37,452 nucleotides of DNA, taken from Bacteroidia bacterium. Its GTDB lineage: Bacteria > Bacteroidota > Bacteroidia > B-17B0 > Aurantibacillaceae. The position numbers and the translations under genes are program-made. This document shows positions 4,849 to 37,452 of this stretch, one piece after another. The notes under the pieces are model-generated. The model did no database searches. It was given only the letters and a program-made list of their open reading frames with translations, and was not told the origin of the DNA. The stretch is from NCBI GenBank assembly GCA_022841465.1, contig JALHRL010000031.1, positions 1 through 37,452 on the forward strand, read 5' to 3'. Numbering within the stretch: position 1 is the first letter of the stretch; each line of letters begins with the position of its first letter.

Positions 4849-4968
4849 TTATTTACAATTTATTATCCCTACCCGACTAGTAGAGCAAGTTCTTTTAAGG
4901 TCTTTTGTTAAAACTATCATTGTGCCTAGTAAAGCATAGGCGAGGATTATTATTAGTAAGTATTTCAT
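4849..4968 (-). CDS. Small membrane protein (39 aa)
   Basis: Begins MKYLLIIILAYALLGTMIVL, a single hydrophobic helix, followed by a short tail with two cysteines (CSTSRVGIINCK). It is coupled to the upstream zinc-binding protein gene by an ATGA overlap and ends just before the YopX gene. It could be an inner-membrane peptide or, with its early cysteine-free hydrophobic start, an exported peptide. Function unknown. Confidence 0.55.
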   Translation of the reverse strand: MKYLLIIILAYALLGTMIVLTKDLKRTCSTSRVGIINCK

Positions 4969-5669
4969 TTTAGTTTTTGGTCTATGATTTTTAAAATATG
5001 TTCACGACATTTATTCCACCCTTTGTGTTGCATATATAACTCTAATTCTTCTCCCTTTAATACAAAACTAAAAGTATTCATTGGTTTTTCTTTTATCTTC
5101 TCTCTAAATTCCTTCCATTCAGCTTCACGTTTGGATAGCCAGAAGTCTGTAATTTTACGACTTAACCCCGAAGAAATTCTCAAATCTACAAATCTACCAA
5201 AAAATTCTTTATCAAACTCTATCTTCCAATCCTGTATTATAAGGGATTGCTTAACATCATCAAACGTATTCTGGTGAAAATCATAAAATGCTTTTTCTTC
5301 TTTTGAGCAATTATTACAATACCCTCCTGTTGATTTATTACAGTCGCTACATTCTTCTTTAGGGTCTTTGGGTTTCCTATTCTTTTCAATTTGCAACACC
5401 ATTCTCTCTGCACCGTCTTGTGTGCTATGTTCAGAGAAAGAACCATCACTCCATTCAAGTTTCCAGCAACCATTTCTAACTTTATATATAAAATATCTTT
5501 CTTCTTTTATAGTGTCTTTGGGTTGATGACAAGCACAATCTATACTTCTACACTTTCCATCTGTAGGATCTGGCATATCTTCACACACCCAGCAACACTT
5601 TCCATCTGTAGGATCTGGCATATCTTCACACACCCAGCAACACTTTTCTTCTTTATTTTGATTTTTCAT
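4965..5669 (-). CDS. Cysteine-rich zinc-binding-like protein with internal duplication
   Basis: 234 aa. The N-terminus carries two identical 15-residue units, KCCWVCEDMPDPTDG, followed by KCRSIDCACHQ. A second cysteine cluster (CSDCNKSTGGYCNNC) lies near residues 107-121. The remaining C-terminal half is charged and helical and ends GWNKCREHILKIIDQKLK. The spaced Cys pairs suggest zinc ribbons. The repeated unit comes from a perfect 45-bp tandem DNA duplication (5551-5640) that keeps the frame. Upstream is AGGAG at a suitable distance, one of the few clear Shine-Dalgarno sites here. Function unknown; possibly a host-factor binder. Confidence 0.65.
   Translation of the reverse strand: MKNQNKEEKCCWVCEDMPDPTDGKCCWVCEDMPDPTDGKCRSIDCACHQPKDTIKEERYFIYKVRNGCWKLEWSDGSFSEHSTQDGAERMVLQIEKNRKPKDPKEECSDCNKSTGGYCNNCSKEEKAFYDFHQNTFDDVKQSLIIQDWKIEFDKEFFGRFVDLRISSGLSRKITDFWLSKREAEWKEFREKIKEKPMNTFSFVLKGEELELYMQHKGWNKCREHILKIIDQKLK
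5551..5640. repeat. Perfect 45-bp tandem duplication
   Basis: Bases 5551-5595 and 5596-5640 are identical, each encoding one KCCWVCEDMPDPTDG unit of the zinc-binding-like protein on the minus strand. No base has diverged, so the event is recent or continually homogenised, or is an assembly error at this spot. Confidence 0.9.
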
Positions 5670-6023: not shown

Positions 6024-6494
6024 TTATTCTTTTATATTAATTGTTAATTTTGCTTTAAGAAAATCAGCCATTTTAGTTCTACTTTGCAATGCTCCTTTTT
6101 GGAATAGACCTTTTGCTTTTTCATCCCAAGAGTTTTCTGATTTTGTGTAAATGTCTATCATCTCTACTATGGACTGTAATAGTTTGTGTTGTTGGGAGAT
6201 GTTTTGTATTATTTCTGCTTTAAAGTATTCGTAAACATCGTGTGCTCCATTTTCATCTACTCCACTTTCATATACACCATTTTTAAAGTTTTCTTTTGTG
6301 AGTTCATAATTTTCAAAATCATTCCCTCCATAAACTTTATCTCCAAGAATTATACCTGTTTCAAATCTATCTGGCTCAACAGAAAATATCTCATCTCCAC
6401 CCTCGCCTGTGTAAGAACTATAAGCCCTAAAAAGAATATAATTCCCATCTACCCACTCTTTCTCTCCTTGTTCTATTATTTTATTTATATCCAT
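6024..6494 (-). CDS. Hypothetical protein (156 aa)
   Basis: Acidic protein. The N-terminal half is strand and glycine rich (YSSYTGEGGDEIFSVEPDRF, ILGDKVYGGNDFENY). The C-terminal half is helical, starting at HDVYEYFKAEIIQ and including QQHKLLQSIVEMIDIY. No family recognised and no membrane segment. It sits in the early-type small-gene operon between the 52-aa acidic protein and the 72-aa protein. Confidence 0.65.
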   Translation of the reverse strand: MDINKIIEQGEKEWVDGNYILFRAYSSYTGEGGDEIFSVEPDRFETGIILGDKVYGGNDFENYELTKENFKNGVYESGVDENGAHDVYEYFKAEIIQNISQQHKLLQSIVEMIDIYTKSENSWDEKAKGLFQKGALQSRTKMADFLKAKLTINIKE

Positions 6495-6512
6495 ATTCTA
6501 ATTCTCTTAAGT

Positions 6513-6671
6513 TTAAAATAATAAAGGGTCCGGAATACTTTCTTCTTCTCCTTTAATTTCCCAGTCCTCGCCTAATTCGCGACCTTTTTTGATTTCTTCC
6601 TTAACTTCTTCTAAATAATTAATTAAATCTTCTTTAGAAAAACTAGCTTTATCAATTTGTAAATAAATCAT
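6513..6671 (-). CDS. Small acidic protein (52 aa)
   Basis: Begins MIYLQIDKASFSKEDLINYL, then EEVKEEIKKGRELGEDWEI and ends SIPDPLLF. The ATG overlaps the stop of the 60-aa membrane protein gene (TAATG), which supports the call. The central helix with 'EEIKKGRELGEDWEI' resembles small phage proteins seen near replication genes, but no named family fits. Confidence 0.6.
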   Translation of the reverse strand: MIYLQIDKASFSKEDLINYLEEVKEEIKKGRELGEDWEIKGEEESIPDPLLF

Positions 6672-6853
6672 TATTTAATTATTAAATTAATTGGATAAAT
6701 TACGACCTTTTGCATAATACTACCACCACATTCCATTTCTCCTCTTCCCTCTTCAAAACAAGATAAATACAATAAAAATGTTATAAACAATAAGCAAAAA
6801 TAAATTATCACAACATACAACACATATTCGCCAATTTTTTTACATATTTTCAT
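6671..6853 (-). CDS. Small membrane protein (60 aa)
   Basis: One strong transmembrane helix (YVLYVVIIYFCLLFITFLLY, about residues 11-30) followed by a short polar loop with two cysteines and a second, weaker hydrophobic end (KVVIYPINLIIK). Coupled to the next gene by TAATG. A membrane protein in an early-type operon may act in superinfection exclusion or host membrane change; this is inference from location only. Confidence 0.6.
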   Translation of the reverse strand: MKICKKIGEYVLYVVIIYFCLLFITFLLYLSCFEEGRGEMECGGSIMQKVVIYPINLIIK

Positions 6854-6858
6854 TTTTA

Positions 6859-7197
6859 TTAATCATTATAATTATAACTATTTGGACGACCACTCCAAAT
6901 ACTAAAATATCCTTTATGCTTACTTTCACCATATTGATTAATTACATACGGATAAGATCCAGTAAAAAATAAGTGATTTTCATTACCTTTAATTCTTAAT
7001 CTAAATGGATTACCTATTGTTTTTGTAATATCTGGAACTTCTTGACCTTCATAACCTGCTCCGTCTATTTTTTTATTTCCCAACATTTGACAAAGGATAG
7101 TTTTGTCTGTTTGATCTAACACAACAGCATAATCATTATGTGTCATATCATAACCCCAACTTGTGTGTAATATTTTACCTTTAAAATCTTTTTGCAT
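6859..7197 (-). CDS. Hypothetical protein (112 aa), first gene of the small-gene operon
   Basis: Beta-rich protein with many Gly, Tyr and Asn (KILHTSWGYDMTHNDYAVV, then HKGYFSIWSGRPNSYNYND). The N-terminal 'SWGYDMTHNDYAVVLDQT' has the look of small phage proteins described only as conserved hypotheticals. It is the first gene after the promoter at 7243-7272 and has an AT-rich leader with no Shine-Dalgarno site. Confidence 0.7.
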   Translation of the reverse strand: MQKDFKGKILHTSWGYDMTHNDYAVVLDQTDKTILCQMLGNKKIDGAGYEGQEVPDITKTIGNPFRLRIKGNENHLFFTGSYPYVINQYGESKHKGYFSIWSGRPNSYNYND

Positions 7198-7242
7198 TAT
7201 ATTTTTATAAAATTATTTTTAATAAATTATTGACCTATTTTT

Positions 7243-7272
7243 ATTATACAGCAACCCGTATAAATAACACAA
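7243..7272 (-). promoter_or_regulatory. Promoter with operator-like motif
   Basis: Minus strand: TTGTGT (7272-7267), 18-base spacer, TATAAT (7248-7243). The spacer and -10 carry ACGGGTTGCTGTAT (7259-7246), which matches 12 of 14 bases of the repeat at the 12813 promoter in the same register to the -10. It is followed by AGGTC in the leader, also shared. It drives the 7197-to-4272 genes. Confidence 0.55.
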
Positions 7273-7280
7273 ATTAATTC

Positions 7281-7289
7281 TGTGGATAA
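7281..7289 (-). promoter_or_regulatory. DnaA-box-like 9-mer
   Basis: TTATCCACA on the minus strand, a perfect match to the common bacterial DnaA box, ten bases upstream of the -35. The same 9-mer occurs at 198-206, and a one-mismatch version (TTTTCCACA) at 12852-12860 beside the other early-type promoter. Chance cannot be excluded for a 9-mer. Confidence 0.35.
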
Positions 7290-7290
7290 C

Positions 7291-7620
7291 TTACAAAACC
7301 CTTTTAAGTAAAAGATAAAATTCTCTAATTTCTTCTTGCTTTATTTTTTCTAAATTAGGATTTTCTGCAATTTTATAAGCATAATATCTACTTCCACTTT
7401 TACCAGTTTGCCATTCTCTATAAAATAATTCTGGATTATTTTTATATAACTCTGACATTCTTGCGGAAACTTCATAAGAGATTAAAACCCATTGATCAAA
7501 CTCATTAATATAATGCTCTCCAACTACTCTCCACAACGGAGTTAATTCATTTTTATTTTCTATATATTTTTTATAAAAAAAATAAAATATTGCTTGATGT
7601 TGTGTAATTTCTTTAATCAT
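7291..7620 (-). CDS. Hypothetical protein, possibly winged-helix (109 aa)
   Basis: Begins MIKEITQHQAIFYFFYKKYI. The ATG at 7620 is chosen over the longer in-frame start at 7752 because that extension would lie wholly inside the upstream gene, whereas 7620 gives an 8-base overlap. The segment 'LTPLWRVVGE', the helical 'VLISYEVSARMSELYKNNPE', then 'WQTGKSGSRYYAYKI' resembles a helix-turn-helix plus beta wing. It ends the replication operon. Function unknown; DNA binding is inferred only from this pattern. Confidence 0.65.
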   Translation of the reverse strand: MIKEITQHQAIFYFFYKKYIENKNELTPLWRVVGEHYINEFDQWVLISYEVSARMSELYKNNPELFYREWQTGKSGSRYYAYKIAENPNLEKIKQEEIREFYLLLKRVL

Positions 7621-7966
7621 ATTTTTTTGTTTGATTAAATTTAATAATTTTTTCCATAGCGTCCCAAAAAGAAGCCGGACAAAACCAACCTGTTTTATGC
7701 CTATTACCACTTTCGTCTTTGCGCCACATAGTAGCATATTTATCAAAAACAAAAGTGTCGCCTATATTATTCTCAAATTGCTTAACGAATTGTTTTCTAT
7801 ATGCTTCAATTTCTTCAATTCTATAAATTAGAACAGAATTTTCTTTTTTAGCTTTTACTTCTTCTTGCTTAATTTTTGCATTTTTTATATTCTCCAACAT
7901 TTTATCACTTGGAAAAATATCTTTTAATGCGTCTTTCTCTTCTTTTTTATCGTGTTTATTTTGCAT
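7613..7966 (-). CDS. Hypothetical protein (117 aa)
   Basis: A charged helical N-terminus (KNAKIKQEEVKAKKENSVLI) is followed by a more compact C-terminus with 'FVFDKYATMWRKDESGNRHK' and 'GWFCPASFWDAMEKI'. The Trp/Gly/Cys-rich C-terminal part looks like a small folded domain, but I do not recognise it. It lies between the 112-aa and 109-aa genes downstream of the initiator, so a role in replication is possible. Confidence 0.65.
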   Translation of the reverse strand: MQNKHDKKEEKDALKDIFPSDKMLENIKNAKIKQEEVKAKKENSVLIYRIEEIEAYRKQFVKQFENNIGDTFVFDKYATMWRKDESGNRHKTGWFCPASFWDAMEKIIKFNQTKKYD

Positions 7967-8003
7967 AAAATTGCTTGTTTTTTAAATTTATAATCAAAAC
8001 CTC

Positions 8004-8342
8004 TTATTCTAGTAAAAACTCTTCGCTAATGCTATTTTTGAGCGAATTAGGGCTATTATCTAGCAACCTTGCTAGTTCAATAATACTTTTTTCATCTTTT
8101 TGGAATAATAATTTTTTTATTTCTTCAATTTTTGGATCTTTTGGACTAATTAATTTAACTCTTTTAACATTTTCTTCTTGTGTTTTTTCTACATCAATAA
8201 ACACTCCGGAGCAAAAAGCAGGATTAATTAATTCTCCAGACTTAAACTCAATAAACCTTTTATCTTGATTTTGTAAGAAAAATTGTTTTTCCTCTTCATC
8301 AAGATATAATTCCTCCCCTTGTATATATATTCTATAAATCAT
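8004..8342 (-). CDS. Hypothetical protein (112 aa)
   Basis: Starts MIYRIYIQGEELYLDEEEKQ and has a beta-strand N-terminus (FIEFKSGELINPAFCSGVFI) and a helical C-terminus (KIEEIKKLLFQKDEKSIIEL). No recognised domain. It follows the initiator gene by 13 bases on the same transcript. Confidence 0.65.
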   Translation of the reverse strand: MIYRIYIQGEELYLDEEEKQFFLQNQDKRFIEFKSGELINPAFCSGVFIDVEKTQEENVKRVKLISPKDPKIEEIKKLLFQKDEKSIIELARLLDNSPNSLKNSISEEFLLE

Positions 8343-8355
8343 CTTTATTTTTTAT

Positions 8356-9204
8356 TTATTTATTATTTTTAATACTTGCGACCTTATCACTACTACTACC
8401 TTTTTCTTTTGCTTTGTTCTTTTCCTGCTCCCAGAATAAAATCAATTTTCCTAAATCTCTTCTTAATTCCGTTGGTTTTGTTATTTTAGGCGCATATGGT
8501 TTTGAAACTGCTTTTTTAAGATTATCAACCAACCATTTTATTTTTTCAAAACCAAGCTCATCAACTAATTCCTGTAAAGCATATCTTTCAGTTTTATTTG
8601 AATAAAATTTTTTGTATAAAGGATTTACTTTTTCAAAAGGATCTATTAAATCATTCCACTCACTCCCTTGCAAAAAAACTTTAGGTTTTTTGCTTTTCTT
8701 TTGTATATTATTTCTTTCTTTTCTTTCTTTTCTTTTGTATGTAGTCAATAAGCTACTACTATTTGTAGTCAATTGACTACAACTTTCAGTAGTCAATAAG
8801 CTACTAGTTTGTTCATTTTGACTACTACCTATTTTACTACTAGCTTGCAGACTACTATTTTTCTTTTTAGCTATTCTTTGTGGTCTTTTTTCAACTTTCC
8901 ACATTGAATAATCTTGATTAATGCCATATCCTTGTTCTGTTTTAAGTAGTAGCTTATAAGCTACTAGTGATTTTAATGCCCTAAAGACATTTACTTGTTT
9001 CATACCTGTTATAACCACAAATTGAGATAAAGAAATTTTATCAAAGTCTTTTCTTCTGTTGCCTTTGACCCAGCCCCAAGTTTTTCGTAGAACAACCCAA
9101 AGGACACGAACCTCGCTACCAGACAAACTTGTTTTAGCTAATATTTCAGCTAACTCATTAGCTACCTTAAAAAAACCGTTTTTTGTAGAAGGGTTTACAC
9201 TCAT
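8356..9204 (-). CDS. Replication initiator, phage O-like
   Basis: 282 aa. The N-terminal domain (about residues 8-105) has the pattern of phage replication protein O: 'GFFKVANELAEILAKTSLSG', 'VLWVVLRKTWGWVKGNRRKD', 'ISLSQFVVITGMKQVNVFRA' and 'LLLKTEQGYGINQDYSMW', a winged helix that binds origin iterons. Residues about 115-155 form a Ser/Thr/Gln linker whose codons are the iterons themselves, followed by a Lys-rich stretch. The C-terminal domain (from FLQGSEWNDLIDPF) would recruit a helicase or loader; no helicase gene is seen in the window, so the host's is presumably used. It overlaps the HNH gene by 4 bases. The arrangement closely matches lambda O, whose gene also contains the origin. Confidence 0.85.
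   Translation of the reverse strand: MSVNPSTKNGFFKVANELAEILAKTSLSGSEVRVLWVVLRKTWGWVKGNRRKDFDKISLSQFVVITGMKQVNVFRALKSLVAYKLLLKTEQGYGINQDYSMWKVEKRPQRIAKKKNSSLQASSKIGSSQNEQTSSLLTTESCSQLTTNSSSLLTTYKRKERKERNNIQKKSKKPKVFLQGSEWNDLIDPFEKVNPLYKKFYSNKTERYALQELVDELGFEKIKWLVDNLKKAVSKPYAPKITKPTELRRDLGKLILFWEQEKNKAKEKGSSSDKVASIKNNK
8741..8964. other. Probable replication origin: palindromic iterons inside the initiator gene
   Basis: Three 16-bp sites start exactly 24 bp apart at 8741, 8765 and 8789, and a fourth lies at 8949-8964. The first and third read GTAGTCAATAAGCTAC, the second GTAGTCAATTGACTAC (perfect palindrome) and the fourth GTAGCTTATAAGCTAC (perfect palindrome). They are thus combinations of two half-sites, GTAGTCAA and GTAGCTTA. 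Extra ACTAC/TAGTAG half-sites lie at 8818-8860. Next to them, 8680-8740 is a strand-asymmetric purine/pyrimidine AT-rich run. Iterons plus an adjacent AT-rich run inside the O gene is the lambda origin plan. Confidence 0.8.
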
Positions 9205-9587
9205 ATTATCTTATTGCTTTTTTGTGAATTACAACTGCGACATAAAGTTTGAAGATTATCAATATCTAGGCTACCTCCATAACTTTCAGGTGTAATATGA
9301 TCAACACTTAAATTCTCTCTTGTCATACAGATTTTACAAGTAAAATTATCTCGTTTCCAAACTTTCCATTTAAGCGAGTGTGGTATTGATACTTTAATAT
9401 AATCAAATACTATTCTTTGTTTTCTATTAGCTCCCCAAAACTGCATTTCGTTAAATACAATAATAAAACAGTATTTACAAATAACACTTTTATTATTGTA
9501 TTGAAATGTTTTAGGGTCTGATATGTGATACTTTTTTTGACAAATATTACAAATATCATAACCATTTTCTTTTTGAGGATTAGACAT
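9201..9587 (-). CDS. HNH endonuclease
   Basis: 128 aa. The N-terminal half has two Cys pairs (CNIC and CKYC), a possible zinc ribbon. The C-terminal half is a classic HNH core: 'FTCKICMTRENLSVDHITPE', then 'YGGSLDIDNLQTLCRSCNSQ', with the catalytic His in VDH, the Asn in IDNL, and two CxxC pairs for zinc. It lies between the initiator and the nuclease-translocase fusion. HNH enzymes of this size may be packaging-associated nickases or free-standing homing enzymes; its place among replication genes rather than beside TerL leaves both possible. Confidence 0.85.
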   Translation of the reverse strand: MSNPQKENGYDICNICQKKYHISDPKTFQYNNKSVICKYCFIIVFNEMQFWGANRKQRIVFDYIKVSIPHSLKWKVWKRDNFTCKICMTRENLSVDHITPESYGGSLDIDNLQTLCRSCNSQKSNKII

Positions 9588-9591
9588 AGTG

Positions 9592-11721
9592 TTATTTTGT
9601 TAAATATCCTTGTAATCTTTCAATTCCTTTATCTCCGGCAAATAACATATCGCCCTTTCCAAGTAGTTTTTCTCCTCCTTTTTCATCTATTACAACTTGG
9701 CTATCTATTGCTTTTGCTGTTCTAAATAAAACTTTTGTTGGAAAATTAGCTTTAATAGTTCCTGTAATAACATCTGTGCTAGGCCTTTGAGTAGCTAACA
9801 CTAAATGAATACCTGCTGATCTACCCATTTGAGCTAGCAATAAAATTAATTTTTCAATTTCTTTAGAAACATTTGTTTCTTTTTTCTTTTCTTCTTCTTC
9901 TCCTGCGCGTGGACCTTTTTGAAAAACTTTTCCAGTTTTTATCCATTCTGTATGGATAAAATTTTGCATAATAATATCTCCAAACTCATCAAATATTACA
10001 ACTATATAATTAAGATCAGTTTCTGATATATCTTTTAATCCTTTTTTAGATAATATTTCATATCTTTTTTTCATTTCAGTATGCAAATCCTGTAAATAGC
10101 TCCAAATATCCATAATAGCTGTCGCATATACCTCGCTATTTCGCTTAAATTTGATTAATTCAACCATTTTAGGGTCAAAAAGGTGTAATAATACCTTTTT
10201 ATCTTTTGAAAGCTGTTCTATGAGAGAATTTAAGAAAACAGACTTTCCACTACCAGAGGATCCCGCAACCAAAAGATGAGGTGCTTCGGTTAATGGAATA
10301 TTTCTACTATTTCCATAAGCGTCTTGACCTATCTTTATATTTTTTATATTACTATCTTTTACACTTAATGCCGGAAATGTTCTATCCTTTTTAGGAATTT
10401 CAAAACCAACAAAAGTGCTAAAAGGAATAGGAGCCAATATTCTAACTCCAGAAACTCCTAAAACTTGTTCTATATCTTCAACATAGTTTGCTATTTTAGA
10501 CATTTTAATACCTATGGACGGGGTATATTGATATAAATCAATACTAGCTCCCTCTACTTTACCCTCAAAAGATAAAGATAATCCGTGTTCCATAAGTTTT
10601 GTTTGTATTTTTTCTTCTGTTTTCATTTTAGAATAATCAATATTTTTTGCTTCTACAAAACTCTCTTCTATTGTTTTCATCATTTTTCTCAAATTTCCAG
10701 AGTTTTGTATTTGCTTTTTTAATAAATCTGTTAATGTTTCAACCTCGTGTTTTTTCATAAGTTTAGCCACCTCCTCTCTTTCGTCTAATCTGTGGATATA
10801 ACTTATGATCCCTAACTCGCTATCTTCTCTAAAGATAGAAAATAAATTAGGCAAATATACCATTTGACCTTGTAAAGCTAAAACTATATCTTGGTATAAT
10901 CTTAAATAAAAATCAAAAAATAAATCTGATTTACTATATACAATTTCAATAGGTAAAACTTGTTTTACTGTTTTATCTCTATTTGGTGTAGTTTTTACTT
11001 CTTCGTAAATAAAAGAGTAAGGTTCTTCTCCATATTTTGCATATACTAAAAAGTAATACTGGACTGCTTGAATTATTTTAGCTCCGTCTATTTCATCTGG
11101 TTTTGAAAAATTAGAAACAGTTTTATAATCCACTATTTTTAATTTTCCGTCTTCTCTAATTATTTTATCTACATAACCCTTTAGTTTTATAGGTAAATTT
11201 AAATTTACTCCTCTCCACTCAACACTTATTTTTTCTTCAATTTTTTCTTCAATAGCTACAACCTCAACATTCTTTTTGTAAGGCAATTCTTTTACATAAG
11301 AATTAAATACAAAAGCAAATATTTCTTGTGCTTTTGCTTTATTTGGTATTTTTTCAGAATATTTAATAAATCCGTCATTATAATCTTCTAAAAATTGCAT
11401 ACCAGTTTTAAGCCCTAATAATATTCCCTCTTCTTCGGAAGTTATTGGTGTGTCTGTGCCACCATAATAAACCGCACAAGCTCTGTGAAAAGCTGTGCCT
11501 ATAATACTTTTAATAGAATTTGCAGTATCATAACTATCCCCATTTATATATTTGATTTTTGCTAGTATTGGATTACTACAAAAAGCGTTCATAAAAGAAT
11601 AGGAAAAATGTTTTACAACAAATCCGTCTTTTACTTCTTCATTACTCGTCCAAGTGTCCTTGATCACTTTCGGGACCTTGAGTTTCATCTTGATTTTCTT
11701 TGGTTTTTTTGTTTGTTTCAT
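9592..11721 (-). CDS. RecB-like nuclease fused to FtsK-type DNA translocase
   Basis: 709 aa in two recognisable parts. Residues about 35-270 are a PD-(D/E)XK nuclease of the RecB/Cas4 type: GTAFH with His79, GYVDKI with Asp185, IVDYKT with Asp198 and Lys200, and QAVQYY with Gln219. Residues about 370-445 match the FtsK alpha domain (YTPSIGIKMSKIA, LGVSGVRILAPIPFSTFVGF), and 450-709 the RecA-like motor: Walker A GSSGSGKS (487-494), Walker B VVIFDE (574-579), then ATQRPSTDVITGTIKANFPT and KLLGKGDMLF. No gamma (KOPS-reading) domain or membrane region is present. The start at 11721, or the in-frame ATG at 11688, overlaps the recT gene by 47-80 bases. Inferred role: a motor-driven exonuclease that resects ends for RecT, comparable in logic to RecBCD or HerA-NurA. 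Confidence 0.88.
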   Translation of the reverse strand: MKQTKKPKKIKMKLKVPKVIKDTWTSNEEVKDGFVVKHFSYSFMNAFCSNPILAKIKYINGDSYDTANSIKSIIGTAFHRACAVYYGGTDTPITSEEEGILLGLKTGMQFLEDYNDGFIKYSEKIPNKAKAQEIFAFVFNSYVKELPYKKNVEVVAIEEKIEEKISVEWRGVNLNLPIKLKGYVDKIIREDGKLKIVDYKTVSNFSKPDEIDGAKIIQAVQYYFLVYAKYGEEPYSFIYEEVKTTPNRDKTVKQVLPIEIVYSKSDLFFDFYLRLYQDIVLALQGQMVYLPNLFSIFREDSELGIISYIHRLDEREEVAKLMKKHEVETLTDLLKKQIQNSGNLRKMMKTIEESFVEAKNIDYSKMKTEEKIQTKLMEHGLSLSFEGKVEGASIDLYQYTPSIGIKMSKIANYVEDIEQVLGVSGVRILAPIPFSTFVGFEIPKKDRTFPALSVKDSNIKNIKIGQDAYGNSRNIPLTEAPHLLVAGSSGSGKSVFLNSLIEQLSKDKKVLLHLFDPKMVELIKFKRNSEVYATAIMDIWSYLQDLHTEMKKRYEILSKKGLKDISETDLNYIVVIFDEFGDIIMQNFIHTEWIKTGKVFQKGPRAGEEEEKKKETNVSKEIEKLILLLAQMGRSAGIHLVLATQRPSTDVITGTIKANFPTKVLFRTAKAIDSQVVIDEKGGEKLLGKGDMLFAGDKGIERLQGYLTK

Positions 11722-12553
11722 TTGGCGATTTTATAAAATTACCCATTAATAATGATTTACTTTGTTCTATTGCATTTGGTAGTCTTTCTGCTAAAGTGCT
11801 TTCTTGATTATCAATATGCATAGCTAGATTAATTGTTTCATTTTTTGGTAAGAATTTTTGGAATTGCTTTAATACTGTCTTTCTCCACATATTTAATTCC
11901 GGATCATTTGCAGAGTTCCAAGGAGAATATTTACCATTTGGATCAAAAGATTTAGAAAATTTTTGTGCGTGTGCTAGTATATCTTTTCCATTCATATATC
12001 TAACACTTTCTTGGTCCTTATACATTATTCTCACATATGCTCCTATTGGTTTTCCTCTTTCTTCTGCGGATAGAGTTAAATCAATTTCGTGTTTTAATTC
12101 TCCGTTTGAGTAAGAAAAAATATCTTTTTCTCTAATAATATCAGAAGTTATTTTCTGTATTCCTGCTTTATAGAAAAGCGTGACCCAACCTTGATAACCA
12201 ACTTGTAATTGAGCTACTTTTTTTGCTTTCCATTCTCCTTTTTCATCTTTATACTTATTGTTATAAGCAACCACATAACATTCTCCGGATATTTGACTTG
12301 GCATAAATCCTAAAAAAGCCATATTTAAATAAGCGTCTATAACACTTTTAGGATCTGATAAAGCTATATCTGGATTTCTTTCCATATCCATAGACATAGC
12401 TGATAAAAATTTTAATGTTTTTTCTTTATTTCCATTAAAATAATTAGCAAGTTTATTTTGGTATTTTGTCATAAATTGATTATTTATAGACAAAGCCTTT
12501 TTTTCTTGAATAGTTAATTCTACTTTATTTTCTTGTTTTTTATTGTCTTGCAT
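11642..12553 (-). CDS. recT: RecT-family single-strand annealing protein
   Basis: 303 aa. The family core is clear: KTLKFLSAMSMDMERNPDI, 'DAYLNMAFLGFMPSQISGEC', 'VAQLQVGYQGWVTLFYKAGI', and 'SPWNSANDPELNMWRKTVLK'. RecT coats single strands and anneals complementary ones for phage recombination and repair. In RecE/RecT systems the partner is a 5'-3' exonuclease; here the next, overlapping gene is the nuclease-FtsK fusion, which most likely takes that role. The C-terminal tail is acidic and polar (KENQDETQGPESDQGHLDE), as in many annealases. No SSB gene is recognised in the window. Confidence 0.93.
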   Translation of the reverse strand: MQDNKKQENKVELTIQEKKALSINNQFMTKYQNKLANYFNGNKEKTLKFLSAMSMDMERNPDIALSDPKSVIDAYLNMAFLGFMPSQISGECYVVAYNNKYKDEKGEWKAKKVAQLQVGYQGWVTLFYKAGIQKITSDIIREKDIFSYSNGELKHEIDLTLSAEERGKPIGAYVRIMYKDQESVRYMNGKDILAHAQKFSKSFDPNGKYSPWNSANDPELNMWRKTVLKQFQKFLPKNETINLAMHIDNQESTLAERLPNAIEQSKSLLMGNFIKSPNETNKKTKENQDETQGPESDQGHLDE

Positions 12554-12584
12554 TATATAATTAAATTGTTAATTTGTAAGGTTT

Positions 12585-12620
12585 AGAGAAGTCCTCTTTT
12601 TTGAGGGCTTTTCTTTTATA
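12585..12620 (+). terminator. Hairpin with T run between the KGG and recT genes
   Basis: A 12-pair stem, 12585-12596 with 12603-12614, with a six-T loop. In the plus sense two pairs are G-U and the stem is followed by TTTTATA; in the minus sense those pairs become A-C mismatches. It therefore looks like a terminator for plus-strand (antisense) transcripts, although both flanking genes are on the minus strand. Confidence 0.45.
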
Positions 12621-12774
12621 CCGACCCCTGTTTAGCTTTGTCCCAGCGTTTTTCTACTAATTTTTTAAAGTATTTTTTCCCATACTTTTTTTTAACCGCT
12701 AGACCTCCTTTTCTCGCGACTTCACTTTGAAGAAGTCCTGTTTTTTTCTTTTCTTTCTTTAAAACTTTTGGCAT
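12616..12774 (-). CDS. Small basic 'KGG' protein (52 aa)
   Basis: Begins MPKVLKKEKKKTGLLQSEVA, then RKGGLAVKKKYGKKYFKKLV and EKRWDKAKQGSV. The 'A-R-K-G-G-L-A-x-K-K-K-Y-G' pattern followed by 'Y-F-K-K-L' resembles small KGG/stress-type proteins that, from memory, are frequent in Patescibacteria and their elements. It is very basic and probably binds nucleic acid. It is the first gene after the promoter at 12813-12841 and lies 63 bases upstream of recT. A 16-base leader motif (12792-12807) sits 17 bases before its ATG. Confidence 0.65.
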   Translation of the reverse strand: MPKVLKKEKKKTGLLQSEVARKGGLAVKKKYGKKYFKKLVEKRWDKAKQGSV

Positions 12775-12791
12775 AAAATAATATTAATTTT

Positions 12792-12807
12792 TTAATAAAC
12801 GACCTTT
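12792..12807 (-). promoter_or_regulatory. 16-base leader motif, copy 1
   Basis: AAAGGTCGTTTATTAA on the minus strand, ending 17 bases before the KGG gene ATG. The identical 16 bases occur on the plus strand at 14665-14680, ending 18 bases before the holin-candidate ATG. A shorter relative (AGGTC, then TTATTAA) precedes the gene starting at 7197. It may act in translation initiation in place of a Shine-Dalgarno site. Confidence 0.4.
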
Positions 12808-12812
12808 ATTCT

Positions 12813-12841
12813 ATTATACGGCAACCTGTAAAATTATGCAA
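12813..12841 (-). promoter_or_regulatory. Promoter of the recombination/replication operon
   Basis: Minus strand TTGCAT (12841-12836), 17-base spacer, TATAAT (12818-12813). The promoter is embedded in the two 14-bp repeats at 12816-12829 and 12841-12854, one covering the spacer and -10 edge and the other the upstream edge of the -35, as expected for a repressor or activator site. Confidence 0.6.
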
Positions 12842-12854
12842 TACGGCAACCTGT
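12816..12854. repeat. Two 14-bp direct repeats (operator candidate)
   Basis: ATACGGCAACCTGT occurs at 12816-12829 and 12841-12854, start to start 25 bp apart. A third, 12 of 14 matching copy lies at 7246-7259 in the same register to its -10 element. Shared placement at two promoters suggests a common phage regulator, as yet unidentified. Confidence 0.6.
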
Positions 12855-12863
12855 GGAAAACTT

Positions 12864-12887
12864 TATTATTTAACTTATTAAATAATA
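12864..12887. repeat. Perfect 10-bp inverted repeat
   Basis: TATTATTTAA and TTAAATAATA separated by CTTA. It lies just upstream of the operator repeats. All A/T, so it could be a protein-binding palindrome, a weak terminator or chance in AT-rich DNA. Confidence 0.4.
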
Positions 12888-12918
12888 GGGTTCTGGAAAA
12901 AATATGTTAATAACTTAA

Positions 12919-12947
12919 AATAAGCCCTTATAAAATAAGGGTTTATT
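12919..12947. terminator. 13-pair hairpin in the control region
   Basis: AATAAGCCCTTAT pairs with ATAAGGGTTTATT across an AAA loop, with one G-U pair in the plus sense. Flanks are A/T-rich but have no clean T run. It may insulate the two divergent transcription units. Confidence 0.4.
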
Positions 12948-12986
12948 GATATTTGTTTATACTTTTCCATTACTTTTCCATTACCT

Positions 12987-13016
12987 TTGGATTTTTGTTT
13001 AATAGTTTGATATAAT
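12987..13016 (+). promoter_or_regulatory. Plus-strand promoter for the candidate small RNA
   Basis: TTGGAT at 12987-12992, an 18-base spacer, and a perfect TATAAT at 13011-13016. A strong terminator follows about 90 bases downstream with no convincing gene between. Confidence 0.5.
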
Positions 13017-13018
13017 AT

Positions 13019-13107
13019 AAATACATCTTTTTTATTATATTTTTAGATGTATTTCATAGGTAGGATCCTAAAGATAAAAAGCACTCTCCCCAAAGGGTGC
13101 TTTTTGC
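13019..13107 (+). ncRNA. Candidate small RNA (about 85-90 nt)
   Basis: Between the promoter at 12987-13016 and the terminator at 13076-13105. AAATACATCT (13019-13028) pairs with AGATGTATTT (13045-13054) around a U-rich loop. TAGGATCCTA (13061-13070) is a perfect palindrome, and the last hairpin is the terminator. Start of transcription near 13022 is approximate, and if correct it would trim the first stem by a few pairs. No homology to a named RNA recognised. The whole unit is non-coding in all frames of any length. Confidence 0.4.
13076..13107 (+). terminator. Rho-independent terminator
   Basis: AAAAAGCACTC (13076-13086) pairs with GGGTGCTTTTT (13095-13105) around the loop TCCCCAAA. This is a textbook terminator in the plus sense and nearly as good in the minus sense. 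Confidence 0.75.
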
Positions 13108-13188
13108 TATATAATATATTTATGGAGGACTTTTTGGTTTTTGTATTCTGTAAATTTTCTGGCAATTACTGGGAATATCCTTATATCC

Positions 13189-13215
13189 AAAACTAGTAGC
13201 AATACTAGTTTTTTT
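13189..13215. terminator. Bidirectional terminator-like hairpin
   Basis: AAAACTAGTA (13189-13198) and TACTAGTTTT (13203-13212) around GCAA, followed by TTT. Low in GC, and only five bases from the HNH promoter -10, so it could instead be an operator. Confidence 0.4.
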
Positions 13216-13217
13216 GG

Positions 13218-13223
13218 TATAAT
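13218..13223 (+). promoter_or_regulatory. -10 element upstream of the HNH gene
   Basis: Perfect TATAAT about 36 bases upstream of the HNH ATG. No good -35 is seen because the hairpin at 13189-13212 occupies that place, which would fit activator-dependent or repressible transcription. Confidence 0.4.
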
Positions 13224-13258
13224 AAAATTGAATATGATCATCTTTAAATTTTAATAAT

Positions 13259-13495
13259 ATGAGAACAGGTATTTGTCCTAAATGTAAAATGAGTAAAAAT
13301 TTAACTCGTCATCACATTTACCCAAAAAGATTTTTTAAACACACAAAACACAAAAGAGCCAAAGTTTTAATTTGTCGTGAATGTCATAATGAATTAGAAA
13401 CCTTAATTCCACAAAATGAAAAAATGCCAGACGCATTTTATATTAAAATAGTTGATTTGTTTTTATTTATGAAAACATACAAGCCTGTTTTGTAA
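13259..13495 (+). CDS. Small HNH-family protein (78 aa)
   Basis: Two zinc-binding pairs (CPKC at residues 6-9 and CREC at about 37-40) flank 'LTRHHIYPKRFF', and the second pair continues HNELE. This is a minimal HNH fold with His18-His19 in the active site strand. It is monocistronic, with a -10 element upstream and a strong terminator directly after it. Such tiny HNH proteins may be nickases or degenerate DNA-binding relatives. It is distinct from the larger HNH protein at 9201-9587. Confidence 0.8.
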   Translation: MRTGICPKCKMSKNLTRHHIYPKRFFKHTKHKRAKVLICRECHNELETLIPQNEKMPDAFYIKIVDLFLFMKTYKPVL

Positions 13496-13793: not shown

Positions 13794-13839
13794 GCGTTTC
13801 ATAAGCGCTTTGAAATGAGTTCAATTCTCATACCTGCGA
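13768..13839 (+). tRNA. tRNA-Met-like (anticodon CAT)
   Basis: Cloverleaf by eye: acceptor TGCAGGT with ACCTGCG (U-G first pair), D stem GCG/CGT with loop GTAAGGTAT, anticodon stem AGCGT/GCGCT with loop TTCATAA (anticodon CAT at 13800-13802, U33 and A37 in place), variable TTGAA, T stem ATGAG/CTCAT with loop TTCAATT, discriminator A. CCA is not encoded. Position 8 is G rather than the usual T, and there are no three G-C pairs in the anticodon stem, so an elongator Met or an Ile2 (lysidine) tRNA is more likely than an initiator. Confidence 0.75.
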
Positions 13840-13841
13840 CA

Positions 13842-14189
13842 ATGAGAAATTATCTTGTAGTAAATAAAAAAACCAAATATGGAAATATCAAAACGGAATA
13901 TAATGGAATTGTTTTTGATAGTAAAAAAGAAGCTAATTTTTGTAAAGAATTAGATGTTTTAAAAAATGCAAAAGATCCAAAAGAAAAAGTTTTAAGTTAT
14001 GATTTACAAGTAAAATATCCTATTTATATTAATGATAAAAAAATCTGTGATTATATTGCGGACTTTGTTGTTAGGTATGGAGATCATAGAGTTGAAGTTA
14101 TAGATGTAAAAGGAGTAAAAACTGATGTTTATAAACTTAAGAAAAAAATGATTGAAGCATACTACAATTTCAAAATTGTGGAAAAGTAA
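13842..14189 (+). CDS. DUF1064 nuclease-like protein
   Basis: 115 aa from the ATG at 13842; the earlier in-frame ATG at 13815 is rejected because it lies in the T stem of the tRNA. The family pattern is complete: 'KYGNIKTEYNGIVFDSKKEA', 'LSYDLQVKYPIYINDKKICD', 'YIADFVVRYGDHRVEVIDVK' and 'GVKTDVYKLKKKMIEAYY'. The E...D...ExxDxKG arrangement is a PD-(D/E)XK-type active site. DUF1064 proteins are phage enzymes thought to resolve Holliday junctions or branched DNA, which suits a phage that recombines with RecT. It starts two bases after the tRNA. Confidence 0.85.
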   Translation: MRNYLVVNKKTKYGNIKTEYNGIVFDSKKEANFCKELDVLKNAKDPKEKVLSYDLQVKYPIYINDKKICDYIADFVVRYGDHRVEVIDVKGVKTDVYKLKKKMIEAYYNFKIVEK

Positions 14190-15914: not shown

Positions 15915-18900
15915 TTATTTTTCTTTTAATACTTCTAATCCCTCTTGTGCAATTTGTGTTTGCAACTGATCTAATTCTAGCAAATATTTCTTTTTTGTGA
16001 TAGAAGTCATAGTATCATCTTCATAAATTAAATCTTTTGCTTCTCTAATTGCGGAAAATTCTTTTATAAGAGAATTTACATAAGTGTAGTAAGCAATTTC
16101 TGGATATTTTTCTAAATATTTATCTAGTTTTTCCTCGCTAATATTCCTATTTTCAGCCATTTGATTAAAATACTTATATTTACTTGAAATTGATTTATAC
16201 TCACTATAAATTCTATTTACACTTTCAGAACTACTACCATAAGGAGTTTTAACCATAAATGATTTAATAACTGGTTTTTCAGCTAATTCTTTGGCTGGTT
16301 TTACTTGATCTTCTCTTATTCCAGTTTTCTTAAAGATATAATCTAAAATATTTGTTCCATATCTACCAAGCCCCCCAGTATATCCAAACAATAAATTATC
16401 TACTTTATCTGGAGAAATGTTAAAAGTTTCTCCTATTATTTTTGCAACTTCACTTGTGTAATTGCTAGTTTGATATTTAGGAGGTAAATCTTCTTTTCCT
16501 CGTGAAACAATAGGCCTGTCTTTAAAGAAAGAATAATTTGTAATATTTTCTATAAGAGGAATTAATCCAGTAGGTAAAAAACTAGGAGTAGCCCCGTCCA
16601 TAACAGACTTTGCCATTTTTTTAAACAAAGTTTTATCTTTTGTGTCCATATACTCTAATATTCTTTCCGGCATAGAACCAAACAAAGTTCCAGTTAAAAA
16701 AGGTTTTGGTATTCTGTAAATATTCTTTTCTGTAATAATTATCCAAAAAATATCTTTTTGCCATTGTGGAATTTCTTTCCAGCGTTCATCATCTCTGTTT
16801 GCATAGTAAAGCAAAATAGACGGCAAGGTAATTGCTAAAAATACCCTAAAAGAAGTTTTGCGAGGATTTGCTTTAAATGTTCTGATTAATTTATCAGTAT
16901 CTTGGACATTTGCATTCCAGAAAGCTGTAATCATATTTAATGCTTTTGTTTTTGCTCCCATTCTAGCAAAGTCTAAAGTTAATTCTCTTGAAGCAAAGGC
17001 TCCCTCTACTGGACTTGCTTTTTTGTTTAAAGCTCTTTTCATTTCTCCTAATCTTGTGGCCTGTTCCGCAATTTCAGAAGCAATTCTTAATAACTCAATA
17101 GGATTTTTTACATACTTTAACGCTGTTTGACCTTTCGTCGCGAGTAAATCTTTAATATTTTCTTTTAAAGAAGTTCTATCTAAAGAAACTAAACTTGCTT
17201 GTTCTCCTCCAGCCATACGCCATAAATCATAAGTATCCCCTTTTTTAAATAATTCAAACATACCGCGAACCATATCATAGAATGGTTTATATCCAAATTT
17301 TGAGTTTACAAAAGCCGAAAATTGATCTCTCATAGGATTTTTAATTACGAAATCCGGTGTTAAAGTAGCTCCAGATCTTAATAATTTTGCTGGAATAGAA
17401 ATTAGTTGTATAAAATAAGAAATTTCTTCGTCATTAATTCCTTGTATTGCTTTATAAAGATCACTATCTAATTCATAAGCAACTTTTTTATCTCCTAAAT
17501 TTACAATAATTGTATTGTTTCCAACAACTTGGCTAGGTCTAAAAATAGAAACTAATTCATCAATAGCTCCCTCTGGTAATTCTTCTTTTAGAATACCTGC
17601 TTTTTCTAATACTTCTTCTACATTTACTTTAACTCCTTGCATAGGCAAAGGCACTTTTTCAACTAATCTTCCAAGTTCAAAATCTCTTCCAGCTAATCTA
17701 ACTAAAGCCATTCCAACATTATTTCTTTCAGAAGCATTAATAATAGCATAAGTATCTTTTACTATGCTTTCCAAAGGATCAATAATTTCTCTATCTGATC
17801 CTTTAATTTTTTTAATAGGACTTTTAACCCCTCCTATTTTTTTTCCTCCCATATATTTACCAGAAACTTCCTCCATAACTCTATAAAAAGGCACTCTGGC
17901 TTTGTTTAATTCTTTAATCTTTAAATATCCCTCTTGCCCTAATAATCCACTATCTAGCGCATATTTTAATAAATCGTCTTGATATTTATAGACTTCGTTT
18001 GCTTTTTCAATAAATTCCGGATTAGTTCTTTCTGTATTTTCTACTACTAATCTTGCGTCATTTATATCAATACCAGTTTTAATTTGTCTTTCTCCTAATT
18101 CTATTGATCTTTTTGCAATAAGATAAATTCTAAATTTGTCTAACATTCCAGCCCTTTCAATAGGCAACAATATTTCTTGTAGCCCTTTTCCTTTAAAATT
18201 AGCAACAATTTGTCCGTCTTTTTCTATGTAAAAATCACGACCAAAAGTTCCTTTTTGTAAAAATGTATTAGCTTTACCTACCCAGCCACGCAAATTTCTT
18301 GCCAACATATATGGATTTTTTTCTGCTGGTATATTGCCTTGTAATACCTTTTTACCTAACTCTGTAAATTGATCTAATGGGTGTAAATCATCTATTGTAT
18401 TTTGATATAAAGTGTGAAATTTATTTGTAAAATTTATTTTTTCTTTTTCTTCAAAAGATATTTGACTTAAAATTTTAGCTTCTGCTGGTTGTGATAACCA
18501 CCTTTGATAATCTCCAATAGCTGTTTCTATAACTTCTTTAATTTCCGGCATAGCTTCCATTTTTGCTTGCCATATTTTGTTATATTCTGGAGCAAAATTT
18601 TTAATTTTATCTTCTTGGCCTGTCATCTTGTATCTCAAAAATTCTGCAAATGCTTCCATTCTTTGTGTATTAGGTTGTCCAGCATAAGTAAAACCATACT
18701 CTGACATAAGAGGTATCCTCTCATTTTTAGGAATATCATAAGAAAAACCAAATTTATCATCTAGAAAATGACCTATTTCGTGAAAAATAGTAGGTAAACC
18801 TCCTGCTTTATACCTAACTACCTTTGGACCGGATTTGTATAAACCAATAGCTCCTCTGTGATTAAACCTACCTCTTCTTATAGGCACGCCAAATTTATCG

Positions 18901-21900
18901 CTTAATTCTTTAGCAATTTCACTTCTCTTAACTATTTTATTTGTTTCTTCTTGTGCTTTTTTGCTACTTGGCTCAATTAAATTTCTAGGATTAAAACCTA
19001 AACTACCAACATTAATATTTGTTTTTATAGTTTTTTTCTTTGGCTTTATTTCTTTTTTAATACTTTGATTAATATATTCTTCTCCTCCTTTTTTAGTTAT
19101 TTGATCTTTAGTTTGAAATAATTCCACAGACGCCTTATCTTCCGGCAATATTCTAGTTTCATACCAGTTATAATTATACTCATCTACTGTTTCGCTCAAA
19201 TCTTTTCTTTTCTTTTCTAAATATTTATAAAATGCTCCTTTATTACCATTTTCATCTATACCATACTTACTAGCAATATTTTCTTGCGCTCTATTTCCAA
19301 TATCTGATATTCTAAAACTTTTGTAATCGCCCTCATTATAAGACATAAAGTTTTCATCATCAGTTGCTTGTATATAACCCTCTACTTTTGCAACAACATA
19401 AGGACTAGGAAATCTCACAAAATTAGCTCCCTCCATAGACGCTTTTCTAATTGCTGTATTTATTATTGTTTCATAATAATTATTTTTGAAAGCTAAATAT
19501 TGCTCTGATAACATTAATTCTCTTTGTTGCTCTGGACTTAATTTATCTGTTTCTTGTGAAATATATTCTTCATATTGTTTTTTATGTTTTTTAATTATTT
19601 GATTTAATTTTTCTAACAAAATTTTTCTGTTTCTATTGCCAATTTCTGTATTATTGTCAAATAAAAATTTGTTAAAAATAGCACTTTCATCTTCTATATC
19701 GGTTTTTCTAATTTGTTCGTATGTAATTTCATCAACAAAAGTTGTATTATAATCAATTTTTATTCCTGCATTAATTTCTAATTTTCTTAAATCAGCAGAA
19801 AGCCAATCCGCCATATTTTCTGGATTTTTACTTAAGTCTTTTTTTAATTCTTGAGTATATTTAACAATACTTTGCCAAGCCATTTGTGTATCAATTATTT
19901 TAGATCTTACTTCTCTAGCAAAATATAACCCCTCTTTTTTTGAAGCAAAATCATCTTCTTTTTCTTTTATTTTTTTATTTAATTCTCCTATTTCTTCCTT
20001 AATAGCTTTTTCTTTTATATCAAACTCTCTATTAGATAAATCTTTTTTTCTATCTTCTAGTGTTTTAAGCATTGTTTCTTGCTCTTTAATTTTTTCTTTA
20101 AGTTCAGAAATTTCACTATCTAATAACCTCTTATTTGTTCTAGCTAGTGGACTTAAATCTTTTTGAAAAACATCTGACTGCATTTCAGAAACATAAAAAA
20201 CATCATCAGCTATAAAAAATCTAAAATGACCAAACATTCCTGCTTCCCTAACTACTCTATCAGAAAAATTATTAATATACTCTTGAGCTTGTTCTTCTGT
20301 ATCAAATTTACCAAAAACACCCTCTTCTATATTATCTCTTTGTAAATTTTTTCTAGCTACATAATATTGAGTTTTATCTACCCTTTGAGTTCCCCCCTCC
20401 ACATCATAAGTTCCAGCGTCTATTTTTCTTATTTCTAAATCTTCTTTTGTGGTTGTAAAATCAAATTGAGAAGCAAAATGCCCTAATTTTCCGTGTTTAA
20501 AATTAGTATTTAAAATGACTGTCCCTGCTTTTTCTCTTTCCAATTCTCTTCTATTAATATTTTCTAAACCATAGTCATCATAAGAAGTTTTTTTATCTAT
20601 GATAGAAAATTGAATTAAATCAGAATAAATTGCTCGTTGTAGCTCTTTTGTATCTATAATGTCTTGATTTACAAAATCAGTATCAAGTTTGTTTTGGACT
20701 ATTTGACGCATTAAAGGTTTTTTTAATCTACCTAAAGCGGAAATAATAGTAGCTCTTTTTGTTGTTTCATTTTTCCATAAAGGATCTTTGAATAGCTCAT
20801 AGGAAAAAATAGCTGGATCTTGATTAAATTCAACTCTTAATTCTTCAATACCCCCGTTTTCTTTGAAAGTATTTATTCTTTTTATTAAATTTGGATCTAA
20901 AACTTGCTTAAATAATTGAGTTAAAGGTTTCTCTAATTTTAATAATTTTTCAAAAAATGTTTTAATTTTCTCAAAAATTCTTTGTAAAGGAGTTTGTTTT
21001 TGCTGTGCCACATACCATTCTGCAAATTCTTGAGCTAATATTTCTTCTGCTTGAATATTAGTCATTCCATCTTTTTTAACTAAATTTAAAGCATTTTGTT
21101 TTTCTTCTTGCGATAAAATTAAATCAGCAAAAGAGTGAAAAGCCTCGTGTGGCAAGGTTGTTCTATCTGGATTTTTAAGAAATCTAATTACACCTTGATA
21201 ATATGAGCCAAGTGCATTAGGATTATTTAATCTTTCAACTAATAAAGTTTTGCCTTGATTTGAAAGTTCTTTAAAAATAGGGATTTTTAATGCTTCTTTT
21301 ATAGCTTGTTCTGTTGGAATAAATTCATTTGGATCTATTGTTTGAAAATTTTCTAATAAATCTATCCTGTCTTGTAGTTCTTTAATTTGTTCTTCTTTTT
21401 GTTTTTTAACTTCTTCATTAGTTTCAGTTTCTAATTCTTGTCTTAATTTATCAGCCTTTTGACTTAATACACTTGGACTATCTTCGTCAATTTTTTCTTT
21501 TTTACTTTCTAATTCTTTTCTTCTTTGGGTTGCTTCTCCTCTTCCGGTTCGTTCTTGATCTCCTCCTCTATTGCTTGTATCATTAACTTTTGTATCTTCT
21601 TGTTGTCCATATTCTTTTAATATATCAGCTCTAATAGATGATGTGTCTATACCTAGACGAAAATCTAATTCAGCTAACATTTCATTAACTAATAATCTAC
21701 GAGCCGTTGCGTTCGGCTTTTTATCAAAAGATATAGTTTGTATATCTTTTATTATTTCTAATAACTTATCAAGGGCTTTTCTACTTCTTACATTTTCTGG
21801 GATCCAAGCTGGAAAACTAGAAGAAATTCCTATAACTTCTTGGTCAATACCATAACCAATTATCTCTCTTCTTCCAGCTTCTGCTAATTCTAAACTAGCT

Positions 21901-37226: not shown

Positions 37227-37452
37227 TTAAATTTTACTTTCTCCTAACTTCATTTCTATTGTGGTCTGTGCCATAGCTATCATATAGTTTGTAATATCAT
37301 TTATCTGTTTAGTAGTATATTTATTTTGAAAAAATTTCTTTTTTGCGATTATATGAGCTGTATATAATTCATTATCTATTATGCAAAAATATTCCCATAA
37401 TTCATTTTTATTTCTAACATAAATTGGGCAACCCTTATAATCAATTTTTTTT
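37227..37452 (-). CDS. Small hypothetical protein, C-terminal part of the join-spanning gene
   Basis: The frame entering from the right edge continues the one that opens at base 142 and ends at TAA 37227-37229 with '...TTKQINDITNYMIAMAQTTI' and EMKLGESKI. On the closed circle the protein is 82 aa. Between this stop and the next gene (37094-37226) lies only a short possible frame, MAYNYKKKNSRKKEK at 37155-37202 or so, which I do not call. Confidence 0.75.
   Translation of the reverse strand, partial: KKIDYKGCPIYVRNKNELWEYFCIIDNELYTAHIIAKKKFFQNKYTTKQINDITNYMIAMAQTTIEMKLGESKI
37334..37452. repeat. Direct terminal repeat, right copy
   Basis: Exact copy of bases 1-119, including the terminal run of eight T. 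See the left copy. It shows that the contig is complete and closes on itself. Confidence 0.93.

Follow-up and report, generated by a model that had tools for sequence, protein, structure and literature searches.

The well-studied partners of the annealases RecT and Beta are small exonucleases without a motor. In Firmicutes phages the commonest direct neighbours of recT code for YqaJ, DUF3799 and DUF1351, and RecE-like exonucleases are reported in Gram-negatives; further neighbours include SSB, SMC and uncharacterised AAA ATPases, and the word FtsK does not occur in the main text of that paper as far as it is openly available (PMC8093625). RecET, lambda Red and YqaJ-RecT have in common a PD-(D/E)XK nuclease gene adjoining the gene of the annealase. 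The locus described here is alike in this respect, but its nuclease is joined to an FtsK dsDNA motor. Phage FtsK/SpoIIIE-like proteins (PHROG 1358) have the same type of motor, but in a tblastn search with four copies of the fusion none of 50,697 phage records matched 80% or more of the chain. Similarly, none of 72,556 plasmid records reached this coverage with two copies as query. The nuclease part alone gave only five weak matches among the phage records (E 0.2-0.4), which include the 'RecB family exonuclease' of Bacillus phage Slash, and the motor showed 32-37% identity among the matches listed (60 of 218). In the accessible text of the respective papers, the small terminase of the Bacillus phages Sam46 and Sam112 bears an FtsK gamma domain and both phages have YqaJ and RecT genes (PMC8190038), and the FtsK-like ORF63 of Thermobifida phage P1312 is presented with no mention of a nuclease domain (PMC4569894).

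AddAB, AdnAB and RecBCD are ATP-driven nucleases with a RecB-fold domain, and an ATP drive is predicted for the fusion as well. Their motor is an SF1 ssDNA helicase, whereas the fusion has an FtsK dsDNA translocase, and AddB holds an Fe-S cluster, whereas the fusion is without conserved cysteines that could hold one. HerA-NurA resembles the fusion in its motor, a hexameric dsDNA pump that is RecA-like and belongs to the FtsK-HerA superfamily, and in the scheme proposed below the nuclease would likewise sit on the N-terminal (exit) side. However, HerA and NurA are separate chains in a 6:2 complex, while here nuclease and motor lie in one open frame, the motor being preceded by an FtsK alpha domain and the nuclease being of RecB type; a hexameric fusion would have six nucleases per ring, as against the NurA dimer. 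According to the available parts of the sources, DNA is presumed to leave HerA through its N-terminal HAS barrel and to be fed by HerA into NurA, the NurA-HerA complex of Deinococcus degrades the 5' tail as it translocates (PMC9960219), and in T. kodakarensis it is the HAS domain that binds NurA (PMC12977600).

Outside phages, the pairing of a nuclease with such an ATPase has been described. In DndH and related systems REase or exonuclease domains are fused to HerA/FtsK ATPases, so that DndH/SspH and the HerA-FtsK capture systems resemble the fusion in having both activities in one chain, some of them with an FtsK alpha domain, and the open text of the source mentions a variant with a 3'-5' exonuclease domain (PMC10853773). 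DndH is described there as a defence protein with a REase and an inactive DAM-like domain, whereas the present gene lies beside a phage recT. No Pfam match to DndFGH or Ssp operon members was found among ten proteins of the window. An earlier note on this DNA knew of no phage system described with such a fusion. This stands so far as no description was found in the parts of the open-licence PMC literature that were available; the pairing itself is not new, as DndH demonstrates (PMC10853773).

A nuclease-FtsK fusion gene in a phage contig

The source assembly has 3.77 Mb in 125 contigs, and the window (the whole stretch of 37,452 nucleotides that was analysed) comprises bases 1-37452 of one contig. 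The same 119 bases stand at both of its ends (1-119 and 37334-37452), and we therefore take the contig for a probably complete phage genome, circular and some 37.3 kb long. Its phage identity is supported by portal, major head protein, terminase-like, replication O-like and HNH matches among the window proteins. Elsewhere in the window a 2639-residue protein (15915-23834) contains an LPD38 large polyvalent-protein domain, and within the ORF at 4965-5669 a 45-nt unit of 15 codons, three of them for Cys, is repeated once in tandem without any change (5550-5639). A DUF1064 protein (13815-14189, E 6.2e-17) is coded on the strand opposite to the nearby recT, and an ORF of locus L001 (4401-4766) is similar to it by eye. 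A scan of 9000-13300 gave 20 promoter-like sites against 22.6 in shuffles, and 4 terminator-like sites, one of them within the fusion gene, against 1.4 (sd 1.2); it entered no conclusion.

The fusion gene (9592..11721, minus strand) is an uninterrupted frame from ATG to stop and codes for 709 residues. As the earlier note had proposed, a nuclease and an FtsK motor lie in one chain, and Pfam profiles find PDDEXK_1, FtsK_alpha and FtsK_SpoIIIE in this order, each over its cut-off. The nuclease region, residues 34-340 (10702..11622, minus strand), matches PDDEXK_1 at residues 38-255 (E 4.5e-10, a score of 40.3 bits where the cut-off is 22) and matches TIGR02786 AddB weakly (E 2.6e-4). With an H...D...D-x-K active site and a RecB fold, it has the features of RecB/AddB/RecE-type nucleases. 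The active-site core from Asp185 to Lys200 is at 11122..11169 (minus strand). The alpha domain occupies about residues 361-452 (10366..10641, minus strand; FtsK_alpha at 364-443, E 1.8e-12), and the beta, RecA-like ATPase domain about residues 453-706 (9604..10365, minus strand; FtsK_SpoIIIE at 458-648, E 4.1e-24). Walker A (487-494; 10240..10263, minus strand) and Walker B (574-579; 9985..10002, minus strand) are where they had been placed before. The chain thus has the alpha and beta domains and both Walker motifs of an FtsK/SpoIIIE motor, and its best PHROG match is PHROG 1358. DUF87, the model of the HerA central domain, matches the P-loop region barely over the cut-off (25.1 against 23.2 bits); the HAS-barrel model was not among the best 25 of 30 Pfam families, and it is FtsK_alpha that precedes the motor.

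The gamma (KOPS-reading) domain is absent. In 35/35 copies with a complete C terminus the chain ends 3-9 residues past the position of window residue 705, a count that omits four copies interrupted by a contig end (L001, L029, L088 and L092). The protein is therefore not a full FtsK. A membrane anchor is likewise absent from the window protein, in which the highest mean hydropathy over 19 residues is 1.6 and falls in the motor, and across the family the maximum is not above 1.63 in 39 copies, the nuclease occupying the position of the membrane domain. Both absences had been predicted, as had the overlap with recT, which was measured as 80 nt. As a second in-frame ATG lies 11 codons downstream of the first, the start codon of the fusion within recT is uncertain. 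recT itself (11642..12553, minus strand) codes for a single-strand annealing protein of 303 residues (Pfam RecT, E 5.6e-27; PHROG 148, E 3.4e-41; TIGR00616, 81.8 bits against a cut-off of 52.65).

The whole-chain AF2 model has a mean pLDDT of 84.7 and a pTM of 0.51; the segment that connects nuclease and motor, 342-359, is poorly modelled, because of which the relative position of the two parts is not predicted. The motor (model range 367-709) superimposes on E. coli FtsK (2ius_D) over 312 residues with an rmsd of 1.9 (VIA-align Z 36.0). A nuclease-only model of residues 30-345 (pLDDT 89.3, pTM 0.86) has AdnA (Z 15.5, 229 residues, rmsd 3.9), RecE (15.3, 211, 5.5) and AddB (14.7, 256, 4.1) as its nearest folds, which are tied. 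These are enzymes of end resection, and this argues for a role in end processing. Dna2, MGME1 and Cas4 relatives follow at about 10-13, with RecB and lambda exonuclease lower, near 9. The fold could also be read in another way. The ring might mainly clear proteins from DNA ends or concatemers, or position the nuclease on replication intermediates, and the nuclease would then cut structures such as flaps or stalled forks, with no processive resection. FtsK is a fast DNA translocase which displaces proteins, and Dna2 and MGME1 (each Z 13.4), nucleases of flaps and overhangs, are among the RecB-fold relatives. RecE, AddB and AdnA score higher (Z 14.7-15.5), though within about two units, and the exchange with YqaJ described below points to an exonuclease; this makes the clearing role rather improbable.

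Linkage to recT and an exchange with YqaJ

IMG/VR was scanned eight times, the query being RecT, the whole fusion or only the nuclease part of it, and at least 39 distinct contigs were found, the ORFs of which were tested with profiles of nuclease, motor and RecT. The fused gene is present in 38/39 of these contigs, L056 being the one without it, which together with the window makes 39 fusions. The same chain in 38 contigs rules out a chance fusion, a frameshift or an assembly join. The earlier note had suggested a search of viral metagenomes for the same fusion with recT beside it, and recT was found in all 38. It lies upstream on the same strand in 39/39 fusions, the window included, so that the fusion adjoins a single-strand annealing protein just as the exonuclease of a phage exonuclease-annealase module does. 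The two genes overlap in 25 loci, are separated by 3-5 nt in 2 and by 173-2373 nt in 12; as ORFs were taken from the first start codon, some of the overlaps may be shorter. ORFs intervene in some of the 12 spaced loci. By eye, those inserted in L081 and L082 resemble DNA methyltransferases and the one in L083 an HNH nuclease, all three in the second group of copies described below. Short ORFs directly after the fusion occur in L024 (6106-6378), L025 and L028; by eye they resemble DnaA DNA-binding domain IV.

The 13 loci retrieved by a fusion query alone have recT in 13/13. Scans with RecT only are the fairer test of linkage than those with the fusion as query, and in these the fusion was found in 22/23 and 29/29 loci, the union being 37/38 distinct contigs. 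These scans are biased in that the queries were RecTs known beside a fusion, so only relatives of these were reached. L085 and L092 have the same RecT and could belong to a single phage.

The exception is L056. The fusion is absent within the 8.7 kb examined of this 42.3-kb contig, and 220 nt after recT there is a 262-residue ORF with a YqaJ domain (Pfam PF09588, E 1.8e-17; PHROG RecE-like, E 2.9e-14). The L056 RecT, which is 62% identical to that of L024, nests among fusion-linked RecTs in a set of 11 rows, 10 of them fusion-linked (SH-aLRT 97; the quick tree covers 40 RecTs, and support in such trees is weaker if they include a long row, as L115 is). Thus the fusion and a simple exonuclease occupy the same place in one RecT lineage. 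This exchange is the strongest pointer to the function of the fusion; it rests on one contig.

The linkage bears on a further explanation, in which the fusion degrades host or competing DNA on both strands, for nucleotide supply, host take-over or counter-defence, and is near recT only as a member of a shared early operon. One HerA-NurA does degrade both strands, according to the accessible text of PMC12977600, and HerA/FtsK-nuclease fusions such as DndH are described in the available part of PMC10853773 as systems against invaders. A PADLOC scan of the fusion, one relative and RecT matched the motor to SspH (E 3.3e-27). All the fusion's matches lie on the motor but DruK, which lies on the nuclease (E 0.0084), and a motor-only match would be expected for any FtsK-like ATPase. 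DNA destruction leaves unexplained why recT is the neighbour in 39/39 loci and why a YqaJ exonuclease stands beside the nested RecT of L056. It is an unlikely account of the gene, if one with some claim to attention.

Conservation and inheritance of the fusion

H79, E158, D185, D198 and K200 are unchanged in 39/39 copies, and the position of Q218 is Gln in 37/39. The earlier note was right about His79, Asp185, Asp198 and Lys200, which also stay in place in close homologues where their loss would have spoken against it; the Gln of the motif is 218 and not 219. Only 11 of 316 columns of the nuclease region are invariant over 39 copies, and H79, D185, D198 and K200 are among them. L115, the most distant IMG/VR copy, keeps the catalytic set and has Ser at the position of Q218. 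Cysteines of a 4Fe-4S cluster are typical of nucleases of the AddB, Cas4 and Dna2 type. Here Cys occurs in at most 14/39 copies at any column, and for lack of a common cysteine column an AddB-like Fe-S cluster is unlikely.

In the motor 34 columns are invariant among the copies reaching them, including Walker A (G487, G490, G492, K493 and S494, 36/36), Walker B (D578 and E579, 36/36) and the arginine-finger position R634 (36/36), which corresponds to R620 of Pseudomonas FtsK as given in the available text of PMC7321959. DNA-contact loop II is kept, with R632 in 33/36 and K643 as Lys in 35/36 and Arg in 1/36. The contacts of FtsK loop I are lost in most copies, the K657 equivalent being Lys in 2/36 and the R661 equivalent Arg or Lys in 15/36. 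Since these contacts are not kept, the grip of the fusion on DNA may differ from that of FtsK, and judging from residues 670-675 of loop I as compared with loop II, the two strands may be gripped unequally. The loss of loop I contacts in most copies would also suit a motor that is degenerate or regulatory, the nuclease alone being a RecE-like exonuclease and the fusion a relic; RecE alone suffices as partner of RecT in E. coli. This is very improbable, as the 34 motor columns, with both Walker motifs and the arginine-finger position, stay invariant down to about one-third identity to the window, as measured for copies other than L115. The stretch after Walker B was considered as a peculiarity of the window copy and rejected, its length being 21-103 residues over the family and 54 in the window and eight others.

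Among the copies, a window-like group can be told apart from a second group, and L115 is distant. The second group consists of L080-L092, with L099 and L102 assigned by their RecTs, and its members aligned over the full length have about 33-35% whole-chain identity to the window. A scan of 40 genomes of the genus (E up to 1e-20) found the fusion only in the window. Among 60 genomes of the host and its relatives, other whole-chain matches begin at residue 358 or later and are thus matches of the motor only; in a scan of genome contigs, both confirmed matches cover the motor only, among the matches listed. A class-wide scan of 395 genomes (E up to 1e-20) gave one further fusion, L125, in another genome of the same class; its identity is 38% with L115 and 26% with the window protein. 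This fusion (7118-9238) overlaps by 4 nt a PHROG 3657 gene (6267-7121) which is in the place of recT, and with L125 counted recT adjoins the fusion in 39/40. The PHROG 3657 neighbour was rejected as a distant RecT (profile comparison probability 0.2); its protein may be an unrecognised annealase. With the nuclease profile (E up to 1e-3), 33 further genomes among 395 in the phylum gave matches, the best at E 3.6e-12, in ORFs of about 900-1185 residues. These are taken for putative AddB-like proteins on account of the weak AddB match of the window nuclease.

Quick trees of nuclease, motor and recT were made from 32 copies, with L029, L088 and L092 dropped and four later copies not included. They share 7, 4 and 5 splits of 29, against means of 0.1-0.2 and never more than 3 when the labels were shuffled. 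As the trees agree only in part, and above the shuffles, parts have been exchanged.

A proposed role in viral end resection

On balance the fusion is probably a nuclease which processes DNA ends under ATP drive and stands in for the simple exonuclease of the RecET/Red module, with an arrangement like that of HerA-NurA in one chain. It would take the place of RecE, lambda Exo or YqaJ beside RecT/Beta in the homologous-recombination module of the phage. Going by the structure of FtsK, the alpha-beta part would form a hexameric ring on a dsDNA end, and ATP hydrolysis would draw DNA in at the beta side and out at the alpha side. In FtsK, according to the accessible text of PMC7321959, DNA travels from beta to alpha and exits at the alpha ring; a nuclease on the N terminus of alpha would thus meet the outgoing DNA. 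Tethered to alpha by the poorly ordered linker 342-359, it would be placed at the exit and could cut the emerging strand or strands. If one strand is spared, RecT from the overlapping gene could anneal it to complementary DNA; we infer a preference for the 5' strand and the hand-over to RecT from this scheme only.

Several observations speak against this end-processing role, namely the lost loop I contacts, the exchange of parts, the 12/39 spaced loci and the neighbour of L125, which is not RecT. The earlier note had proposed a motor-driven nuclease that feeds an annealase, as an analogue of RecBCD. What holds of this is that both domains are conserved and tied to recT, and that the fusion is exchanged with YqaJ in one contig. 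The simple analogy with RecBCD fares less well: as far as the source is openly available, the archaeal HerA-NurA of T. kodakarensis cuts both strands and is reported to be unable to make 3' overhangs (PMC12977600), and the behaviour of this analogue speaks against it. A stronger version of the proposal is a self-contained viral resection machine, with a hexameric dsDNA pump and six RecB-type nucleases on its exit face, which works processively and passes the strand straight to the co-translated annealase, being for RecT what RecBCD and AddAB are for RecA. A machine of this kind is not known to have been described, and we put it forward as a tentative possibility that has the odds somewhat against it.

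The pairing of fusion and recT is wider than one phage, and its carriers are phages that are known for the most part through environmental DNA. The fusion offers a testable one-gene model of the coupling between a dsDNA pump and a nuclease, and could possibly serve as a processive recombineering partner for RecT. If the proposal is true, phages have built an ATP-driven resection machine from parts unlike those of bacteria (SF1 helicases) or archaea (HerA), and the logic of RecBCD, a motor and a nuclease feeding a recombinase, would have evolved again. The pairing thus suggests that viruses have made a machine of their own for trimming and rejoining DNA ends.
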